Positions 1,012 to 62,521 of a stretch of DNA of 64,000 bases are shown here, one piece after another. The position numbers and the translations under genes are program-made. The stretch spans positions 390,906 to 454,905 of the forward strand of contig NZ_KE384553.1 in the NCBI RefSeq assembly GCF_000426685.1, read 5' to 3'. Source of the DNA: Solimonas flava DSM 18980 (GTDB taxonomy: Bacteria > Pseudomonadota > Gammaproteobacteria > Nevskiales > Nevskiaceae). Every line of letters begins with the position of its first letter. Positions within the stretch are counted from its first letter, which is position 1. The notes under the pieces are model-generated. The model worked only from the letters and a program-made list of their open reading frames with translations, ran no database searches and was not told the origin of the DNA.

Positions 1012-1521
1012 TCAGCGCACCGGGATCGAGGCGACGAACGCGCCCTCCGGCAGCGGGAAGCTGAGCGTCGACATCGGCGTGACGTGGGATTTGGCGATCT
1101 TCCAGCGCCCGTCCTCGATCACGTAGGTGTCGCGGTACTCCATCGACAGCTGCGTGACGGTCTTGTCCTGGTTGTTGACCTGCATGAACCACAGTGTCCA
1201 CTCGCCGGTGGCGCTGCGCTCGTCGATCAGCTCGACCGTCGGATGCTTGCCGTGATGGATGTCGTGCACCAGCCAGGTCCCCTGCGCGGTCCGGGCGGTC
1301 GCGATCTGGGCGAAGACCTGCACCAGCGGCTCGCGGTCGCTGAACTTGCCGATGACGCCGTAGTCGATGTCGGCGCCCTCGCGGACGAAGCACTCGCGGA
1401 AGGCATCCGGATCCTTGCGGTCGCAGGCACGCCAGTAGCGATACTTCAGTTGCTCGATCTCGTGGATCGCCTCGAGGCGCTGGATGCGGCGCAGCAGGTC
1501 GGCGGTTTCAGTGGCGGTCAT
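1012..1521 (-). CDS. SnoaL-like / NTF2-like fold protein
   Basis: A 169-residue protein starting at ATG 1521, preceded by GAGGAGA as ribosome binding site. It has the layout of single-domain SnoaL-like proteins: an N-terminal helix pair with EQLKYRYWRACDRKD, then a curved sheet ending in VIEDGRWKIAKSHV, the usual final strand of the NTF2 fold. Members are small-molecule isomerases, hydratases, dehydratase-like enzymes or ligand-binding proteins. No catalytic dyad can be assigned, so the substrate is unknown. It is convergent with the DUF2126 gene and reads away from the small-RNA region. Fold call good, function open. Confidence 0.75.
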   Translation of the reverse strand: MTATETADLLRRIQRLEAIHEIEQLKYRYWRACDRKDPDAFRECFVREGADIDYGVIGKFSDREPLVQVFAQIATARTAQGTWLVHDIHHGKHPTVELIDERSATGEWTLWFMQVNNQDKTVTQLSMEYRDTYVIEDGRWKIAKSHVTPMSTLSFPLPEGAFVASIPVR

Positions 1522-1681
1522 GCGGTCTCCTCGTGTTCTGGCGCCCGATGTCCGTCCCGGACGCGGCTCGCAAGGACCTTAGCGGGCGTGCCGGATGCCG
1601 GCACAGTCCAAACGGATGACGGGGCGAGCGCGGCGATCTTGTTGTTTAGTTTTTCTAAGCATCGAGGCAAGAAAAAATCAA

Positions 1682-1710
1682 TTGTTGCGACGCAGCAAGC
1701 GCGCTTTAAT
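1682..1710 (+). promoter_or_regulatory. Sigma-70-type promoter for a small RNA
   Basis: TTGTTG at 1682-1687 and TTTAAT at 1705-1710 are separated by 17 bases, close to the sigma-70 consensus. They lie in a local AT-rich pocket in otherwise very GC-rich DNA. Transcription would begin near 1717 and run into a strong intrinsic terminator about 100 bases downstream, with no open reading frame between. This is read directly from the sequence; activity is inferred. Confidence 0.6.
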
Positions 1711-1716
1711 ACTCCC

Positions 1717-1823
1717 ACGCCAGCCGGATGGCACTTCGAAACGAAGCCTCCCGCTGCCAACGGTCTCCTCCAGATCCCACAAGGGGTCTCTTTAAAGCCA
1801 CCTGACTCAGGTGGCTTTTTTTT
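1717..1823 (+). ncRNA. Candidate small regulatory RNA, about 107 nt
   Basis: The segment between a good promoter and a Rho-independent terminator has no coding potential but strong secondary structure. Hairpin 1 is CTTCG-AAA-CGAAG (1734-1746). Hairpin 2 is AGATCCC-ACAA-GGGGTCT (1772-1789). Hairpin 3 is the terminator (1794-1818). Between hairpins 1 and 2 lies the unpaired pyrimidine stretch TCTCCTCC (1764-1771), complementary to a Shine-Dalgarno sequence. This layout is typical of trans-acting small RNAs that block ribosome binding sites through C-rich motifs. I do not recognise a named family. An alternative is a long attenuated leader of the iron operon that starts at 2114. Confidence 0.55.
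1794..1823 (+). terminator. Rho-independent terminator of the candidate small RNA
   Basis: Ten-base-pair stem AAAGCCACCT / AGGTGGCTTT with a GACTC loop, followed by an uninterrupted run of eight T (1816-1823). The stem and U-tract have the intrinsic terminator shape and clearly favour plus-strand termination. It does not follow any plus-strand gene, which supports an independent transcript upstream of it. Confidence 0.85.
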
Positions 1824-2113: not shown

Positions 2114-2437
2114 TTGAGCGTTTACGCCGTGACTGCCGCCGAGACCGTCCTTCCTGCCGCTTCCTTCGCGCGTCGCCGCTTCTGGCTGCGTACGCTGCTC
2201 GCCGGTCCGCTGGCTTTCGCGGCTGCGGCGCTGCTGATGCTCGGCGGCACGGCATGGCTGCCGGCCGGGCGTGCGCAGATCGACAACCTCGTGCTGCCGG
2301 TCGTGCTGTTCCCGCTGATCTGGACGGCGCTGTTCCTTTACGCCCTGCTCGATGCACGTCTGCTGCGCGCCTACGGCGTCATCGTCGCGCTGCTCGCTCT
2401 GCACGGCGCGCTGATCGCCACCCGGCTCTGGAAATAG
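2114..2437 (+). CDS. DUF3649-type small membrane protein of iron operon
   Basis: A 107-residue protein with a TTG start at 2114; an in-frame GTG at 2129 is an equally plausible start, as neither has a good ribosome binding site. It has a basic N-terminus (ARRRF), a first membrane segment around LLAGPLAFAAAALLML and two more in the second half (LPVVLFPLIWTALFLYALL and VIVALLALHGALI). This is the profile of DUF3649 proteins, found next to PepSY transmembrane proteins and DUF3325 in siderophore-uptake loci. First gene of a Fur-box operon; the next gene starts 3 bases after its stop. Molecular role unknown. Confidence 0.7.
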   Translation: MSVYAVTAAETVLPAASFARRRFWLRTLLAGPLAFAAAALLMLGGTAWLPAGRAQIDNLVLPVVLFPLIWTALFLYALLDARLLRAYGVIVALLALHGALIATRLWK

Positions 2438-2440
2438 CCC

Positions 2441-4048
2441 ATGGTCAAGCTGCCGCAAAGCGAAACGAAGAAGCTGCTGGCGATCCACGGCTGGTCGGGC
2501 GTATTGCTCGGCCTGCTGCTGTACGCGGTGATCTGCACCGGCGTCGCGGCCGTGTTCGAAGACGAGATCAAGGATTGGTCGAGCGCCTTGCCGACCCGCG
2601 CCGCGGCCGAGTTTCCGGCCGGGCTCGACGCCGCGATGCGCCGCGTCGCCGCCGAAACCGATCCGCATTTCCTGCACGATCTGTCGATCTGGCCGGCTGG
2701 CGGCGGGCGTCTCAACCTGCTGTTCCACACGCACGAGACCGACGCGAAGGGCAGGCCGGTCGAGCGCGGCGTCGAGTACGAGCTGGACGGCAATACGATG
2801 CAGACCGTCGCGCGCCGCGAAGGTCGGCTCGACGATCTCGGCAGCGCTCGCCGTTCGAGCGCGCTCGCCGATTTTCTCGTCGAGCTGCATGTGCGTCTGC
2901 ATCTGCCGAACCCGTATGGTCTGTTTCTCACCGGCGTGCTCGGGCTGGTGATGATGATCGCCGCTGTCACCGGCTTCCTGATCCACCGGCACCTGATCAA
3001 GGAGCTGTTCACGCTGCGCCGCCGGCGCGACAGGTTGCTGACGGCGCGCGACGCGCATGTCGTCGCCGGCACCTGGAACCTGCCGTTCGCGTTCATCCTG
3101 GCGTTCACCGGCAGCTTCTTCAGCTTCGCCAGCGCGTTCGCGCTGCCGGCGATGGCGATGGTCGCGTTCGGCGGCGATCGGGACCGGATGTTCGAAACCC
3201 TCATCGGCCGGACCGTCGCCGAGGATTCGCGCGCCGCCGCGCCGGCGGATCTCGACGCCGTACTGCGCGACGTGCGGCAGCGCGCCGGCGAGGAGCCGAC
3301 CTTCATCAGCATCGAGCATTACGGCCGCGTCGACGCCGCGATCACGCTGTTCATGGAGCCGAAGCGCGGCGAGCTGACGCCGATCAGCTACGTCTATTCC
3401 GGCGCCAGCGGCGCGTTCCTGCAGGACAAGCCGCTGCTCGGCCTGCAGCCTTCGTTCGGCGGGCAGCTCTACGCGCTGATCGGGCCGCTGCACTTCGGCA
3501 ACTTCGCCGGGCCGCTGTCGAAGGCCGTGTGGTTTGCGCTCGGCTTCGCCGGAGCGTACGTGACGCTGACCGGGCTGCTCCTGTGGACCCAGCGTCGTGC
3601 CGGGCAGCCGGCGTGGCGGCGCATGGGCATCGTCGTGCACTGGGTCGGCTACGGCCTGCCGCTGGCGCTGCTGGCCTGTCCTTACGGTTACTTCATCGCC
3701 GTGGCGAGCGGCGCCGACGCCATCACTGCGCAGGCCATCGCTTTCCTCGGCGTGGCGGCGCTGACGTTCGCCGCCGTGCTGCTGCTGCGCCGGCATGACG
3801 CGATCCAGCGCGCCGCGCTGCTGGCCAGCGGCGCGGCGATGCTCGGCATGCCGCTGCTGCGTCTGGTCTGCGGCGGGCTCGGCTGGTCCTCGGCGCTACG
3901 CGCCGGCATCGTCGTGGTGCCGGCGGTTGATCTCGCGCTGCTGAGTGCGGCGCTGATCTGTCTGCTGCTGGCTGCGCGCTCGATCCGATCCGCACGCGCG
4001 CTGCCGGTGCGCGAAGTGCGTGCCGCCGGCTGGGCCCCGGGCGCATGA
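2441..4048 (+). CDS. PepSY-associated transmembrane protein, putative siderophore-iron reductase/transport
   Basis: A 535-residue inner-membrane protein. It opens with the signature of PepSY_TM proteins: a membrane segment beginning HGWSGVLLGLLLYAV, then FEDEI. A periplasmic segment follows, a second helix pair (GVLGLVMMIAAVTGFLIHRH), a third (FAFILAFTGSFFSF) and several C-terminal helices from about residue 360 on (FAGAYVTLTGLLLW). Relatives lie in Fur-regulated operons beside TonB-dependent receptors and are thought to help reduce or release iron from siderophores at the inner membrane. No receptor gene is present here, so the substrate cannot be inferred. The stop overlaps the next start by 4 bases. 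Confidence 0.85.
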   Translation: MVKLPQSETKKLLAIHGWSGVLLGLLLYAVICTGVAAVFEDEIKDWSSALPTRAAAEFPAGLDAAMRRVAAETDPHFLHDLSIWPAGGGRLNLLFHTHETDAKGRPVERGVEYELDGNTMQTVARREGRLDDLGSARRSSALADFLVELHVRLHLPNPYGLFLTGVLGLVMMIAAVTGFLIHRHLIKELFTLRRRRDRLLTARDAHVVAGTWNLPFAFILAFTGSFFSFASAFALPAMAMVAFGGDRDRMFETLIGRTVAEDSRAAAPADLDAVLRDVRQRAGEEPTFISIEHYGRVDAAITLFMEPKRGELTPISYVYSGASGAFLQDKPLLGLQPSFGGQLYALIGPLHFGNFAGPLSKAVWFALGFAGAYVTLTGLLLWTQRRAGQPAWRRMGIVVHWVGYGLPLALLACPYGYFIAVASGADAITAQAIAFLGVAALTFAAVLLLRRHDAIQRAALLASGAAMLGMPLLRLVCGGLGWSSALRAGIVVVPAVDLALLSAALICLLLAARSIRSARALPVREVRAAGWAPGA

Positions 4049-4412: not shown

Positions 4413-5843
4413 GTGCTCAAGTCCCACTATCCGCTCTATCTCGCCAATCGCCCGCGTGAAAGCGGGCGGACGCTGGACGTCAGCGACAAGTACTCCGGCG
4501 CGCTGGCGACCCGCGTCGCGCTCGCCGACGCGGCGCTGCTCGACGAGGCGATCGCCGCGGCCACCGCCGCTGCGCGGCCGATGGCCGAATGGCCGGCCTA
4601 CGAGCGCCAGGCGGTGCTCGAACACTGCGCGCGGCGCTTCGAGGCGCGCGCCGAGGAATTCGCGCAGGCGCTGTGCGTCGAAGCCGGCAAGCCGATCCGC
4701 GATGCGCGCGGCGAAGTCACGCGCCTGATCGAGACCTTCCGCTATGCCGCCGGCGAAGCGGTGCGCCAGCATGGCGACTATCGGCCGCTCGACATCGGGC
4801 CGCGCGCGAAAGGCTACTGGTCGCTGCTCAAGCGGGTGCCGATCGGCCCGGTTTCGTTCATCAGTCCGTTCAACTTTCCGCTGAACCTCGCCGCGCACAA
4901 GATCGCGCCGGCGATCGCCGCCGGGTGCCCGTTCGTGCTCAAGCCGGCGAGCGCGACGCCGGTCGGCGCGCTGCTGATCGGCGAGGTGCTCGCCGAAACC
5001 GCGCTGCCGGCCGGCGCGTTCTCGATCCTGCCGTGCCGGGCGGCGGACGCCGACGCGCTGGTCCGCGACGAGCGCCTCAAGCTGCTGTCGTTCACCGGCT
5101 CGCCGGCGGTCGGCTGGGACATGAAGGCGCGCGCCGGACGCAAGCCGGTGATCCTCGAACTCGGCGGCAACGCCGGCTGCATCGTCGACGAGGGCAGCGA
5201 TCTCGATTTCGTCGTGTCGCGCCTCGTGTTCGGCGCCTACTACCAGTCCGGACAGTCGTGCATCAGCGTGCAGCGCATCTACGCGCACGCCTCGCTGTAC
5301 ACGGCGCTGCGCGAGAAGCTGACGGCCGCGGTGCGCGCGCTCAAGTGCGGCGATCCGAAGCAGGAGGACACTTTCATCGGGCCGATGATCGCCGAGTCCG
5401 AGGCGCAGCGGCTCGAGCGCTGGATCGGCGCGGCGCTGCAGCGCGGCGCGCGGCTGCTGTGCGGCGGCGAGCGGCGCGGGGCGATGCTGTCGCCGGCGCT
5501 GCTCGAAAACGTGCCGGCCGATTGCGAGCTGTCGGCGAAGGAGGCGTTCGGCCCGGTCGCGATGCTCGCCGCGTTCGACGATTTCGACGCCGCGCTCGAT
5601 GCCGTCAACGCCAGCGACTACGGCCTGCAGGCCGGCGTGTTCACGCGCGACCTGGGCCGCATCGAGAAGGCCTGGAACCGCCTCGAAGTCGGCGGCGTCG
5701 TGATCGGCGACGTGCCGAGCTTCCGCGTCGATCACATGCCCTACGGCGGCGTGAAGCAGTCCGGGCTCGGTCGCGAAGGCGTGGCCTACGCGATCGAGCA
5801 CCTGACCGAGCCGCGCCTGCTGGTCGTGCGCTCGCCGGACTGA
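4413..5843 (+). CDS. NAD(P)-dependent aldehyde dehydrogenase
   Basis: A 476-residue enzyme of the aldehyde dehydrogenase superfamily, oxidising an aldehyde to the acid in the cytoplasm. Visible motifs in order: the cofactor-binding stretch ISPFNFPLN and LKPAS (Lys contacts the cofactor), FTGSPAVG, the general base in LELGGNAG, the catalytic Cys in GQSCISVQR, and EAFGPVA then GGVKQSGLGREG near the end. The pattern is closest to glyceraldehyde-3-phosphate/lactaldehyde-type members, but the substrate is not resolvable. I chose GTG 4413 because GGAGA lies 6 bases upstream; an ATG at 4353 would add 20 unconserved-looking residues. It follows the iron operon by 77 bases and is probably separate. 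Confidence 0.85.
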   Translation: MLKSHYPLYLANRPRESGRTLDVSDKYSGALATRVALADAALLDEAIAAATAAARPMAEWPAYERQAVLEHCARRFEARAEEFAQALCVEAGKPIRDARGEVTRLIETFRYAAGEAVRQHGDYRPLDIGPRAKGYWSLLKRVPIGPVSFISPFNFPLNLAAHKIAPAIAAGCPFVLKPASATPVGALLIGEVLAETALPAGAFSILPCRAADADALVRDERLKLLSFTGSPAVGWDMKARAGRKPVILELGGNAGCIVDEGSDLDFVVSRLVFGAYYQSGQSCISVQRIYAHASLYTALREKLTAAVRALKCGDPKQEDTFIGPMIAESEAQRLERWIGAALQRGARLLCGGERRGAMLSPALLENVPADCELSAKEAFGPVAMLAAFDDFDAALDAVNASDYGLQAGVFTRDLGRIEKAWNRLEVGGVVIGDVPSFRVDHMPYGGVKQSGLGREGVAYAIEHLTEPRLLVVRSPD

Positions 5844-5879: not shown

Positions 5880-8672
5880 TCAGTGCGCCGGCGCGGTGTC
5901 GCGGCGCAGGAAGGCGATCGGCGGTGCGTACTTCGTCGTGCCGCGCTTCTTCTGCGTGACCAGCGTCAGGCCGGACGGCTTGAAGACGTTGACGTTGTGC
6001 GTATTCGGCGTCGTCACGATGTACTGCGCGCGCGTCGCCTGCAGGAAGGCGCCGACCTTGTCGATGTTGAAGATGTCGAGGTGCGCGAACGGTTCGTCGA
6101 TGAACACGAAGCCGCCGCTCTGGTCCTCGTCCATCAGCAGGCCGACGAGCAGGATCATCGACTTCATCACCTGCTGGCCGCCGGACGCCTCGCCGTCGTT
6201 GAGGCCGATCATGCCCTTCTGGTCGAAGTTGAACTGCACTTCGAGGCGTGCCTGCGACAGCGTGAGGTCGTCATTGGTCAGCTGCGGCGGCTCGACTTCG
6301 ACGTCAATGCCGGCCAGCGCGCCGAGGTGGCGCAGGTTCTGCGCATAGCGGCGCACCGTCGCGCGCAGCACGCCGATGTACTGGCTGCGCGCGCGGTCGG
6401 TGCTGCTGCGCGCGCGTTCGAGATGCACGTCCTGGTCGCTGATGCGCGATTCGAGCTGGCGATGCTCGGCATCGAGCTTGTCGCGGATCGCGACGCAGTT
6501 GGCGTCGGTGTTCCAGCGGCCGTCGTCGCGGCGCCGGTGCAGGCGCTCCATCTCGCGTTCGACCGCGCCGCTGGAGTCGTAGCGGGCGCGGGCCTCCGCC
6601 ATCGCCGCCGCGCTGCGCCAGTCGGCCGGCTTGCCGCGCCGCAGGCGCCGCCATTCGAGCACGTGCGCGGCGTAGGCGCGGCGCGACTGCTCGAACTCGG
6701 CCTGCAGCTGCTGCTGGCGGACGCGCGTCTTCTGCAAGGCCTCTTCGGTGCGGTCGTGGCGCGAGGTGAGGCGGTGCAAGGCCTGCGACATCTCGTAGTA
6801 GCGCGCCGCCGCTGCGGCGCGCGCCGCGCTGATGTCCTCGAGTTCCTGCGCGAGGCGCGCGGCCTCGGCTTCGGCGGCCTCGAATTCCGGCGCGCGCGCC
6901 GCGATCTCGCGCGTGGCGTCGACGCCGGCCAGCGCCGACTGCACGTCGGCGAGCTTGCGCGTGGCGAGCGCCAGCGCCTCGCGCAGGCCTTCGCGCTGGT
7001 CCTTCAGCTCTTCGAGGCGGCGGCGCGCATCGGCGACCGCATTGCGACCGAAGTGCACGTCGACGACGCTGATGTCGCGGCCGCCGCGGCGCTCGCGCTG
7101 ATAGGCGCGCGGCGTGATCCACGACTGGCTCTCCGGCAGGCGCGCGCCGTCCTCGGTGCTGTCGACGCGCTGGATGCCGTCGAGCAGCTTGGCCAGCCAC
7201 ACCGGCGGATCGGCGTGAAAACGCACGCATTCGAGCAGCGAGCCGCGCTGCGGCAGCGGTGCCGGCGCGCGATCGGGCACGACGTAATGGCGATAGCGGT
7301 GCTGCTCGCCGAGACGCCAGGCCGCGGCGCGGTCGCCGGGCTTTTCGAGCAGCACCAGATGGCGCACGCCGGCGAGCACCGATTCGACCGCGAGCTGCCA
7401 GGTGTCGTCGGTGATCTCGACGATGTCGCCGAGCATGCAGTGCGCGATGCCGGCGTCGCGCAGCGCCTGCGAGAACGCGCTGACTTCGCGCGGCTCCGGG
7501 CGCCGGCCGCTGTCGAGCGCGGCGATGCGCGCCTGCAGCTCGCCGATCTCGCGGTCGACGCCGTCGATCTGGCCTTGCAGCTCGTAGCGGCGCCGGCCGA
7601 GCTTTTCCTGTTCGCGCAGCGCGGCTTCGGTGTCGAGGCCCTCGGCCTGTTCGGCGAGCTGGTCGAGCAGGCGCTTGCGCTGTTCGAGCACGGCCTGCGC
7701 CTTGCCGAGCGGGCGTTCGATCTGGCGCTCCTGCTTCTGCAGGCTTTCCATTTGCGCCTTGCTGTCGGCTTCGGCGGCCTCGGTGTCTTCGCGCTCGCGG
7801 ACCAGCGCGCCATGCTCGTCGGCGAGGCGTGCGAGCTGGGCGCCGAGTTCGGCGACTTCGCGGCGCTTGCCGAGCAGCTGGGCGCGGCCGCCGCGCAGGC
7901 TGTCGAGCAGCTCGGCGAGCTGCAGGCGCGGCAGCCACTGGCCGGTGAGATCGGCGAGTTCGCCGAGCAGGCGCTCGTACTCGCGGTACGAGTTGACGTC
8001 GGCCTCGGCGGCCTGCAGCTGGGTGTGCAGGCGCGCGAGCTGGGTCTTGAGCTCGTCGAGTTCGCGTGCGCAGGCCAGCTGGTCCTCGCGCGCCTTCTGA
8101 TAGTTGTCGAGCACTTCCTGATCGCCGAACACGTCGAACACGAGGTCGAGCAGCTGGCGCGGCGAGTATTCGCAGAGCTTGTCGGTGTGGCCCTGGTCGA
8201 GCGCCAGCACGCGCTTGATCGCGCGCGTCAGGCCGGCGTTTTCGAGCTGCGATTCATACTGGCGCACGCCGATCCAGGTCACCGCCTCGCTGCTCTCGGC
8301 GACCTCGACCGGCACGTCGCCGGCGCCGATGCCGTAGCTGCGTTCCCAGTCGCCGCCCTTCTTGCGGATGCGGCAGAACAGCGTGACGGTCTCGTCGGTG
8401 ATCGGCCAGAACGCCAGCTGGCCGTTGCTGCGGCGCGGGTTCGAGACCGTCGCGCGCAGCCACGCCGACGGACGATCGGCGCGGCGCACGTAGCGCTTGT
8501 AGTCGCGACCCTGCGAGCAGTTGATCGCCAGCAGCGTGCGCAGCGCGTCGAGCAGCGTCGTCTTGCCCGAGCCGTTCGGCCCGACGACGGTGACGATGTT
8601 GGCGTCGAGCGGCAGCGTGAAGCGTTCCCACCAGTCCCAGTGGACGATTTCGATCTTGTGGAAGCTGAACAT
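5880..8672 (-). CDS. SMC-like ATPase of a MksB/JetC-type condensin
   Basis: A 930-residue protein, ATG at 8672 (FSFHKIEIVHWDWW follows). It has the full SMC plan: Walker A GPNGSGKTT at residues 31-39, a coiled-coil arm (about 190-390), a globular hinge (about 390-545, with AGIAHCMLGDIVEI as in MksB/JetC hinges), a returning coiled coil to about 800, an ABC signature written as EASGGQQ and Walker B FVFIDEPFAHLD near 855. SMC dimers bridge DNA through ATP-driven loop extrusion. It is the third gene of a kleisin-KITE-SMC operon, 11 bases after the KITE gene, the order of mksFEB and jetABC. The next gene is a convergent aldehyde dehydrogenase, so the nuclease gene of Wadjet is missing here. SMC call firm; subfamily tentative. 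Confidence 0.85.
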   Translation of the reverse strand: MFSFHKIEIVHWDWWERFTLPLDANIVTVVGPNGSGKTTLLDALRTLLAINCSQGRDYKRYVRRADRPSAWLRATVSNPRRSNGQLAFWPITDETVTLFCRIRKKGGDWERSYGIGAGDVPVEVAESSEAVTWIGVRQYESQLENAGLTRAIKRVLALDQGHTDKLCEYSPRQLLDLVFDVFGDQEVLDNYQKAREDQLACARELDELKTQLARLHTQLQAAEADVNSYREYERLLGELADLTGQWLPRLQLAELLDSLRGGRAQLLGKRREVAELGAQLARLADEHGALVREREDTEAAEADSKAQMESLQKQERQIERPLGKAQAVLEQRKRLLDQLAEQAEGLDTEAALREQEKLGRRRYELQGQIDGVDREIGELQARIAALDSGRRPEPREVSAFSQALRDAGIAHCMLGDIVEITDDTWQLAVESVLAGVRHLVLLEKPGDRAAAWRLGEQHRYRHYVVPDRAPAPLPQRGSLLECVRFHADPPVWLAKLLDGIQRVDSTEDGARLPESQSWITPRAYQRERRGGRDISVVDVHFGRNAVADARRRLEELKDQREGLREALALATRKLADVQSALAGVDATREIAARAPEFEAAEAEAARLAQELEDISAARAAAAARYYEMSQALHRLTSRHDRTEEALQKTRVRQQQLQAEFEQSRRAYAAHVLEWRRLRRGKPADWRSAAAMAEARARYDSSGAVEREMERLHRRRDDGRWNTDANCVAIRDKLDAEHRQLESRISDQDVHLERARSSTDRARSQYIGVLRATVRRYAQNLRHLGALAGIDVEVEPPQLTNDDLTLSQARLEVQFNFDQKGMIGLNDGEASGGQQVMKSMILLVGLLMDEDQSGGFVFIDEPFAHLDIFNIDKVGAFLQATRAQYIVTTPNTHNVNVFKPSGLTLVTQKKRGTTKYAPPIAFLRRDTAPAH

Positions 8673-8683
8673 CGGGTTCTGGT

Positions 8684-9502
8684 CTAGTCGTCGTGGCGCG
8701 GCGCGTCGGCCGCGGCAGGGGCCGTGCCACCGGCGTCGTCGGCGCCGGGTTCGCCGGCGCTGAATTCGTCGGCGATGTCGGCGTCGGCGTCGGCGTCGAG
8801 TTCGACGCCGGGCGGCGTGTCCGCGACGTCGTCGTTGGCGGGCGGCGGTAGCTCGTCGTCGCCGTCGTTGGCGGCGCCGCCGAACAGCTCGGACAGCGTG
8901 CCGTTGAGGATGCGCTCGGCCATGCGCTTGTAGTCGAGCACGAGGTCGAGCAGCGGGCCTTCGTAGATGCGGCCGTCGCGGCGCTCGATGAAGCCGAGGC
9001 GCGACAGCACCGGCAGGCCGAAATTCTTGATGCGCGTGCGGCCGCCGAGGCGCTCGCCGAAATCGGCGAGCAGCGTCGCTTCGGCGACGTTGATGCCGAG
9101 CTCGGCGGCGGTCGGGATCGGCTTGGCCTCGGCGAACATTTCCGACTGGCGCAGCCGTTCGAGTTCGGTCTGCCGCTCGATCTGGCGCTGCCGCTTGGGC
9201 AGGATCAGCAGCGCCCACAGCACGACCAGCAGCGCGATCTGGTCGCGCTTGAGTTCGAGGTTGTTCGACAGCCAGGCGTCGTCGCTGCCGAATACCGGCT
9301 GCTCGAACTCGCGGCGGATGCGCAGGGTGACGTGGTCGGCGTACGGATGCTCGACGAATTCGAGGCCGCAGGCCGCCAGACGCTCGCTGAGCGCGTTGTA
9401 GAAGAGATCGTCGGTCAGCGCTTTGCGGACCATCGGGTCCTTGCGCGACAGCACGCGGTGCGCGGACAGGCGCGCGACCAGGGTTTGCAGCTCACGTTCC
9501 AC
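8684..9502 (-). CDS. KITE-like subunit (MksE/JetB-type) of condensin operon
   Basis: A 272-residue protein with a GTG start at 9502, overlapping the upstream gene by 11 bases. Residues 1-210 look like tandem winged-helix folds: LSRKDPMVRKALTDDLFYNAL, a hydrophobic helix with LVVLWALLILPKRQRQ, then LADFGERLGGRTRIKNFG and LSRLGFIERRDGRIYEGP, the last being a typical wing. This matches MksE/JetB subunits, which dimerise on the kleisin and touch DNA. Residues 212-272 form an unusual acidic, Ala/Asp-rich, presumably disordered tail. Assignment rests on size, position between kleisin and SMC, and winged-helix text; no database check was possible. Confidence 0.7.
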   Translation of the reverse strand: MERELQTLVARLSAHRVLSRKDPMVRKALTDDLFYNALSERLAACGLEFVEHPYADHVTLRIRREFEQPVFGSDDAWLSNNLELKRDQIALLVVLWALLILPKRQRQIERQTELERLRQSEMFAEAKPIPTAAELGINVAEATLLADFGERLGGRTRIKNFGLPVLSRLGFIERRDGRIYEGPLLDLVLDYKRMAERILNGTLSELFGGAANDGDDELPPPANDDVADTPPGVELDADADADIADEFSAGEPGADDAGGTAPAAADAPRHDD

Positions 9503-62320: not shown

Positions 62321-62521
62321 ATGCTCATTTTGACCAGACGTGTAGGCGAGACCGTAGTGATCGGCGATGACATCGTCGTGACGGTGCTCGGCGTGAAAGG
62401 CAACCAGGTCCGCATCGGCGTCAAGGCGCCGCGCGACGTGGCGGTGCATCGCGAGGAGATCTTCGAGCGCATCAAGCGCGAAGGCGAAGAGGGCGGTGGC
62501 CCGGTTCCGGCCGCTGCCTGA
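62321..62521 (+). CDS. csrA: Carbon storage regulator CsrA
   Basis: A 66-residue RNA-binding protein starting [17 protein letters not shown], the fixed N-terminus of CsrA, with [20 protein letters not shown] for the second half and the usual acidic/helical end. It binds GGA motifs in mRNAs and alters translation or stability, controlling carbon flow, motility and biofilm. The start is ATG 62321, preceded by GGAGGG; a longer frame upstream is not conserved. Confidence 0.97.

Follow-up and report, generated by a model that had tools for sequence, protein, structure and literature searches.

A conserved small RNA of Solimonas flava with a PhaR-type promoter box and an anti-Shine-Dalgarno seed, predicted to act during PHB storage

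INTRODUCTION

The small RNA (sRNA) MmgR of Sinorhizobium meliloti limits PHB and phasins, and its gene is repressed by AniA/PhaR, with PhaR shifting the mmgR promoter in EMSA (PMC8401924, PMC12542648). The gene is also positively controlled by NtrC (PMC8401924). The RNAs of Rfam family RF02278, Betaproteobacteria_toxic_sRNA (NcS03, NcS05, NcS27, which is bdhR1, and NcS62), and the similar Bordetella S17 place a 5' seed over ribosome sites. The available passages of two papers on B. cenocepacia (PMC5688073, PMC10987360) describe an upstream motif common to three of these RNAs, glucose/starvation induction, and effects on carbon-source use; the CU-rich region of NcS27 is described there as covering the ribosome sites of its targets, with phenylalanine/tyrosine catabolism being affected. 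Those passages name no regulator for the common motif. No paper joining RF02278 or NcS27 with PhaR was found, a weak absence given a literature search conducted largely without subscription journals. In the gammaproteobacterium Xanthomonas, the sRNA sX13, encoded downstream of polA, has three stem-loops, with C-rich motifs (CCCC/CCCCC) in apical loops that base-pair with G-rich sequences close to translation starts.

RESULTS

The window, that is, the whole 64-kb stretch of S. flava DNA that was analysed, comes from a host genome of 4.46 Mb (G000). It contains an unannotated intergenic sRNA gene on the plus strand, with a promoter, three hairpins, the motif UCUCCUCC and a terminator, located between a divergent SnoaL-like gene (1012 to 1521, minus strand) and a PepSY operon that starts at about 2114 (plus strand). 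The predicted transcript of about 107 nt spans positions 1717 to 1823, its start being placed from the -10 element and its end from the terminator. The minimum free energy is -43.8 kcal/mol (z = -4.88), and none of 200 dinucleotide shuffles was equally stable. The 5' hairpin domain (1719 to 1758), delimited by the fold and the homologs, is variable and, taken alone, individually not significant (stem 1, z = -1.7). Between it and the hairpin AGAUCCC-ACAA-GGGGUCU (1772 to 1789), which is seen in both fold and alignment, lies UCUCCUCC (1764 to 1771), an anti-Shine-Dalgarno seed and predicted target-pairing element. The seed is mostly unpaired (mean of 0.79), with its last two C residues at 0.24 due to weak 2-bp pairing, and in most homologs its unpairedness is 0.8 to 1.0. 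The intrinsic terminator (1794 to 1823, hairpin 1794 to 1818) was detected by a terminator scan and shows compensatory changes among homologs; with an 11-bp stem and 8 T, it is the longest among four terminator-like sites in 6 kb. The fold, the terminator and the conservation described below bear out the original prediction of an sRNA with a promoter, three hairpins and a terminator, and its C-rich anti-Shine-Dalgarno motif is indeed exposed. The same prediction held that the region has no open reading frame (ORF); overlapping frames are present, but they are not conserved among homologs, since the distance from box to core changes by 1 to 7 nt and not in multiples of three. Elsewhere in the window, a large coiled-coil ATPase and a smaller partner (5880 to 9502, minus strand) resemble, as judged from their sequences, a condensin/MksB-type pair.

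Homologs came from a search of 60 genomes and from a single pattern scan of public genomes. The gene is present in S. variicoloris, S. soli, S. terrae, S. aquatica and S. marina and in MAGs labelled Nevskia, Sinobacteraceae, Rhodospirillales and Verrucomicrobia, the last two labels being doubtful because the "Rhodospirillales" MOSS locus (L034) is the sequence of a same-family genome (G033). The sRNA blocks of the window and of S. variicoloris DSM 15731 share 98% identity, S. marina has three tandem copies, each with its own promoter (L015, 453 to 940), and a Sinobacteraceae MAG has two (L033, 3396 to 3621). The SnoaL neighbour is conserved beside the sRNA, and a condensin/MksB-like pair lies downstream of the copies in S. 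marina too. Almost no variation is seen in the core, UCUCCUCCAGAUCCC-loop-GGGAUCU. The seed and the first ten positions, UCUCCUCCAG, are invariant among 22 aligned sequences, most of which were retrieved by a pattern containing these positions. Five pairs of the terminator stem have changes on both sides with pairing kept. In the short forms L031, L033 and L035, the 5' hairpin domain is missing and the -10 element runs almost straight into UGUCUCCUCC, giving the 60- to 65-nt two-hairpin layout of RF02278. A covariance model (R1) scored 68.3 bits for positions 1764 to 1822, the window being one of the model's own sequences; it also matched relatives. Because homologs keep the promoter, the core and the terminator while the terminator stem varies with its pairing kept, the sRNA is more than a chance structure, and we regard it as virtually certain that the locus is a real sRNA gene. 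Six further scan matches (L019, L022, L023, L025, L027 and L028) had no terminator and were set aside as apparent chance hits, and a plasmid collection searched with the window sRNA and one RF02278 RNA gave no match.

The promoter consists of a -35 element, TTGTTG (1682 to 1687, plus strand), which is TTGYTG in all aligned homologs, and a -10 element, TTTAAT (1705 to 1710, plus strand), separated by a 17-nt spacer; long-form homologs have TTTAAT or TTAAAT at -10. It had been described as near consensus. The elements are present and conserved, but they match only 9 of 12 consensus positions and a generic promoter scan did not list them, so conservation is the better evidence for this promoter. 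The key feature missed by the original prediction is a PhaR palindrome around the -35 element. The PhaR box TTGTTGCGACGCAGCAA, a 17-bp perfect palindrome at 1682 to 1698 whose left arm is the -35 element, covers the -35 region and spacer. Against published consensuses, it has no mismatch over 17 positions to YTKNTGCRNYGCANMAR of R. eutropha (PMC12849132) and matches 20 of 21 positions of the 21-bp S. meliloti consensus, with one mismatch (PMC12542648); nowhere else in the window is the R. eutropha consensus matched exactly. All aligned long- and short-form promoters of the Solimonas/Nevskia type have their -35 element within a palindrome close to TTGYTGCRNYGCARCAA.

The 15-mer TGYTGCRNYGCARCA has three exact sites in the genome, where about 0.3 would be expected as estimated from base composition. 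One is the window sRNA promoter. Another (C4:270687), accompanied by a second near-site, is upstream of a phasin-like gene, whose Phasin_2 match is borderline (23.4 bits versus a cut-off of 24.9). The remaining site (C6:136550) precedes a 71-amino-acid (aa) ORF whose promoter block is that of the sRNA. When up to two mismatches were allowed, 586 sites were found versus 407 for the reversed control, and because looser matches are this numerous, the evidence was limited to the exact sites and those of the phaR locus. The AniA/PhaR box of the mmgR promoter is represented in the window sRNA promoter by a consensus match, and this PhaR-regulon box is common to the phasin-like gene and, with one mismatch, phaR. 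A further palindrome, TTAGTTTTTCTAA (1646 to 1658, plus strand), of the T-N11-A type (TTAG-N5-CTAA, LysR-like), is found at a near-fixed distance of about 36 bp upstream of the PhaR box in aligned Solimonas/Nevskia-type homolog promoters and also at the C6 71-aa gene. That ORF (L056, 1460 to 1799) has a hydrophobic N-terminal half, a promoter with TTAG and PhaR boxes, a dgkA-like ORF nearby and no Pfam match; judged from its sequence, it is possibly a new PhaR-regulated small membrane protein.

The host genome encodes PhaR (PF07879 and PF05233), which shares 36% identity over 146 aa with S. meliloti PhaR, and a one-mismatch PhaR box lies immediately ahead of the phaR start. Directly downstream of phaR, a second UCUCCUCC sRNA gene with a PhaR box was found on the minus strand (L053, about 4905 to 5040; G000:C5 around 127006). 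It consists of TTTATACTGCATTGCAACA, then CUCUCCUCCAGAAAGGC-loop-GCCUUUC and a terminator, and shares the UCUCCUCCAGA seed with the window sRNA. The arrangement of phaR followed by an sRNA recurs in many relatives across the order. Among 30 covariance-model loci in relatives, 20 had a PhaR box with at most one mismatch, compared with 5 of 414 control windows, although enrichment p-values are overstated since related genomes are not independent. Nine of the 30 had phaR just upstream within the fetched 3 kb, as did L043 and L051, and genome G020 has two tandem copies after phaR. The phaR-adjacent sRNAs carry the box at -10 rather than -35. Given these phaR-linked sRNAs, the window gene is a paralog-like copy, not linked to phaR, of an sRNA type associated with that gene. 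It was originally called an orphan, a description that no longer holds because it belongs to a family found across the genus and family, with a paralog adjoining phaR in the same genome. In most of the loci L181 to L187 the UCUCCUCC core is present but neither a PhaR box nor a TTAG promoter is clear, and some of these loci follow the end of an ORF, so the RNA can have other regulators.

At curated thresholds, Rfam gave no match in the sRNA region. The two best sub-threshold matches were RF00519 (suhB/MmgR; 22.5 bits, gathering score 41) and RF02278 (22.2 bits, gathering score 50), and as both scores are below the cut-offs the RNA was filed under neither family. An RF02278 search of 41 genomes likewise found no relative above the cut-off. 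The double-hairpin layout of RF02278, with a CU-rich seed, a hairpin and a terminator, is nevertheless that of the window RNA family, and exactly so in the short forms. RF02278-type matches were found in 35 of 41 genomes of the family of genome G166, each of a different genus, with 28 above the curated cut-off; the family is inferred to be one of Burkholderiales, because RF02278 belongs to Betaproteobacteria, whose orders GTDB counts among the Gammaproteobacteria. For 30 readable loci (28 from the family search plus L078 and L079 from a class search), a PhaR box with at most one mismatch was present upstream of 27, 14 of them exact, compared with 3 of 540 equal-sized flanking control windows. 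Since the position of the box varies among these loci, it is not merely a shared promoter hexamer. Most matches of the class-wide RF02278 search were to another CUCCUCCAUCCUCC RNA; it has no PhaR box and provides a negative control for the enrichment of the box. A different, widespread gammaproteobacterial sRNA was also observed (L080 to L107; CTCCTCCATCCTCCTTTGGTGG, terminator often GCGCGG, promoter often TTGACA..ATATTAGAA); it is below the RF02278 cut-off, has no PhaR box and possibly represents an undescribed family.

The window RNA thus resembles the RF02278 RNAs in its UCUCCUCC-type seed, single hairpin plus terminator, several copies per genome and upstream PhaR box, but differs in its first hairpin (AGAUCCC, versus ACC..GGUGGA), its extra 5' hairpin domain and its taxon. 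With MmgR (alpha-r8 of Sinorhizobium) it shares a PhaR-type promoter box, a C-rich stretch between short stems, and a terminator. It is like sX13 in being gammaproteobacterial with three stem-loops and C-rich motifs; unlike sX13, it has UCUCCUCC between stems and is found beside SnoaL or phaR. Identity with sX13 was rejected, as the window RNA has no C4/C5 apical loops and its neighbours are SnoaL and the PepSY operon rather than polA.

The seed is complementary to GGAGGAGA, and GGAGGAGA-N3-9-ATG occurs at 32 genome sites, compared with 2 for its reversed control; GGAGGAGA would in any case serve well as a Shine-Dalgarno sequence, and a second Shine-Dalgarno sequence used as background control had just 5 sites and was uninformative. 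The genes behind these sites include a sugar transporter, an amidase, an FMO, an AlkB-type desaturase-fold enzyme, two phenol hydroxylase parts, HmgA, PhhA, a PQQ dehydrogenase, an acyl-CoA dehydrogenase, an esterase, DUF1302/DUF1329 proteins and porins, where the names AlkB and PhhA are our reading of Pfam fatty-acid-desaturase and biopterin-hydroxylase matches. The GGAGGAGA site is kept in S. marina for phhA, the AlkB-type gene and the FMO despite differing flanks, and in S. soli for three other genes (L139, L150 and L163). Duplex energies for phhA and hmgA beat 96 to 97% of mononucleotide shuffles; that for alkB was not significant against such shuffles. The phasin 5' region was not convincing as a pairing target (-13.5 kcal/mol, with 20% of shuffles as good), so that, unlike MmgR, which limits phasins and is NtrC controlled, the window sRNA has no clear target there. 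The phhA and hmgA candidates parallel the reported effect of NcS27 on phenylalanine/tyrosine catabolism. We consider it likely that the sRNA acts by anti-Shine-Dalgarno pairing. That its targets are mainly carbon-catabolic is evenly balanced, and the target statement is put forward as a hypothesis.

DISCUSSION

We consider it likely that the window gene specifies a PhaR-controlled, trans-acting sRNA that blocks GGAGGAGA ribosome sites, mainly of catabolic genes, during PHB storage. In the absence of storage polymer, PhaR on positions 1682 to 1698 would block the sRNA promoter. When PHB is made, PhaR would be drawn onto the granules, and the sRNA would be derepressed and made together with phasin. 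The sRNA, either whole or processed to about 60 nt with a start near UCUCCUCC, would then pair through UCUCCUCC with GGAGGAGA-type Shine-Dalgarno sequences, masking the ribosome sites and blocking translation, chiefly of genes through which peripheral carbon sources (phenylalanine/tyrosine, alkane, phenol, alcohol and sugar) are taken up and broken down. The cell would thereby lower its carbon intake during storage.

PhaR control of some kind is very likely. It is quite improbable that the palindrome is bound by another regulator or is a mere conserved sigma-70 element with PhaR uninvolved: TTGYTG does double as the -35 element and PhaR binding here is predicted, but the fit to the PhaR consensus is exact for R. 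eutropha and near exact for S. meliloti, a phasin-like gene is among the few exact genome sites, and the box is at -10 in phaR-adjacent sRNAs and at variable distance in RF02278 loci, as would not be expected of a promoter hexamer alone. PhaR probably represses the sRNA. Repression is not certain because PhaR activates phaP3 in R. eutropha, according to the available passages of PMC12849132, and together with the positive control of mmgR by NtrC this leaves room for the same RNA and box with PhaR activating or only modulating, the main signal, such as carbon or nitrogen status, being read by a protein bound to TTAG-N5-CTAA (1646 to 1658). The near-fixed spacing of that palindrome in Solimonas/Nevskia homologs and its presence at the C6 71-aa gene fit such a protein. 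We judge this unlikely, since the PhaR box overlaps the -35 element and spacer, the classical position of a repressor, and the promoters of phaR-linked paralogs and RF02278 loci retain that box, with no obvious TTAG box in those read.

A further alternative concerns what the RNA does. As UCUCCUCC is able to pair with many Shine-Dalgarno sequences and RF02278 RNAs are toxic to E. coli (available passages of PMC5688073), it could be a broad, toxic-type damper of translation that binds purine-rich ribosome sites indiscriminately rather than those of a defined group of targets. This too seems improbable: the AGAUCCC hairpin is conserved as well as the seed, NcS27 is described in the available passages of PMC10987360 as affecting a subset of substrates, and Bordetella S17, with a similar seed, left exponential growth of E. 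coli unimpaired. The iron- or CsrA-linked role that was originally suggested is extremely unlikely. It drew on the nearby PepSY-type operon (2114 to 4048), with a Fur-like box read by eye near 2070, and on csrA, located at 62321 ahead of two tRNA genes (62658 and 62784). The operon is not conserved beside the sRNA, with only a 44-aa PepSY match left near the S. variicoloris gene and none in S. marina, and the sRNA promoter holds a PhaR palindrome; inspection of 1640 to 1716 by eye and alignment, without a Fur matrix, showed the PhaR-type and TTAG palindromes and no Fur box was noticed. csrA is 60 kb away, and with a single GGA and no ANGGA motif the sRNA is not a CsrB/RsmY-type sponge.

Returning to a PhaR-controlled sRNA that blocks ribosome sites, the comparisons above moderately favour a wider proteobacterial circuit in which PhaR controls anti-Shine-Dalgarno sRNAs that throttle carbon uptake and breakdown as polymer accumulates. 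On the same reading, held with similar reserve, its members would be MmgR in Alphaproteobacteria, RF02278 in Betaproteobacteria and the phaR-linked family of the Solimonas order in Gammaproteobacteria. If true, a regulator would be named for an Rfam family that has so far had only the label "toxic small RNA," sRNAs of three proteobacterial groups would be tied to one signal, stored PHB, and it would be explained mechanistically how carbon uptake is limited by carbon already stored, which would be relevant to making bioplastics in hosts that have PhaR, among them Cupriavidus necator.
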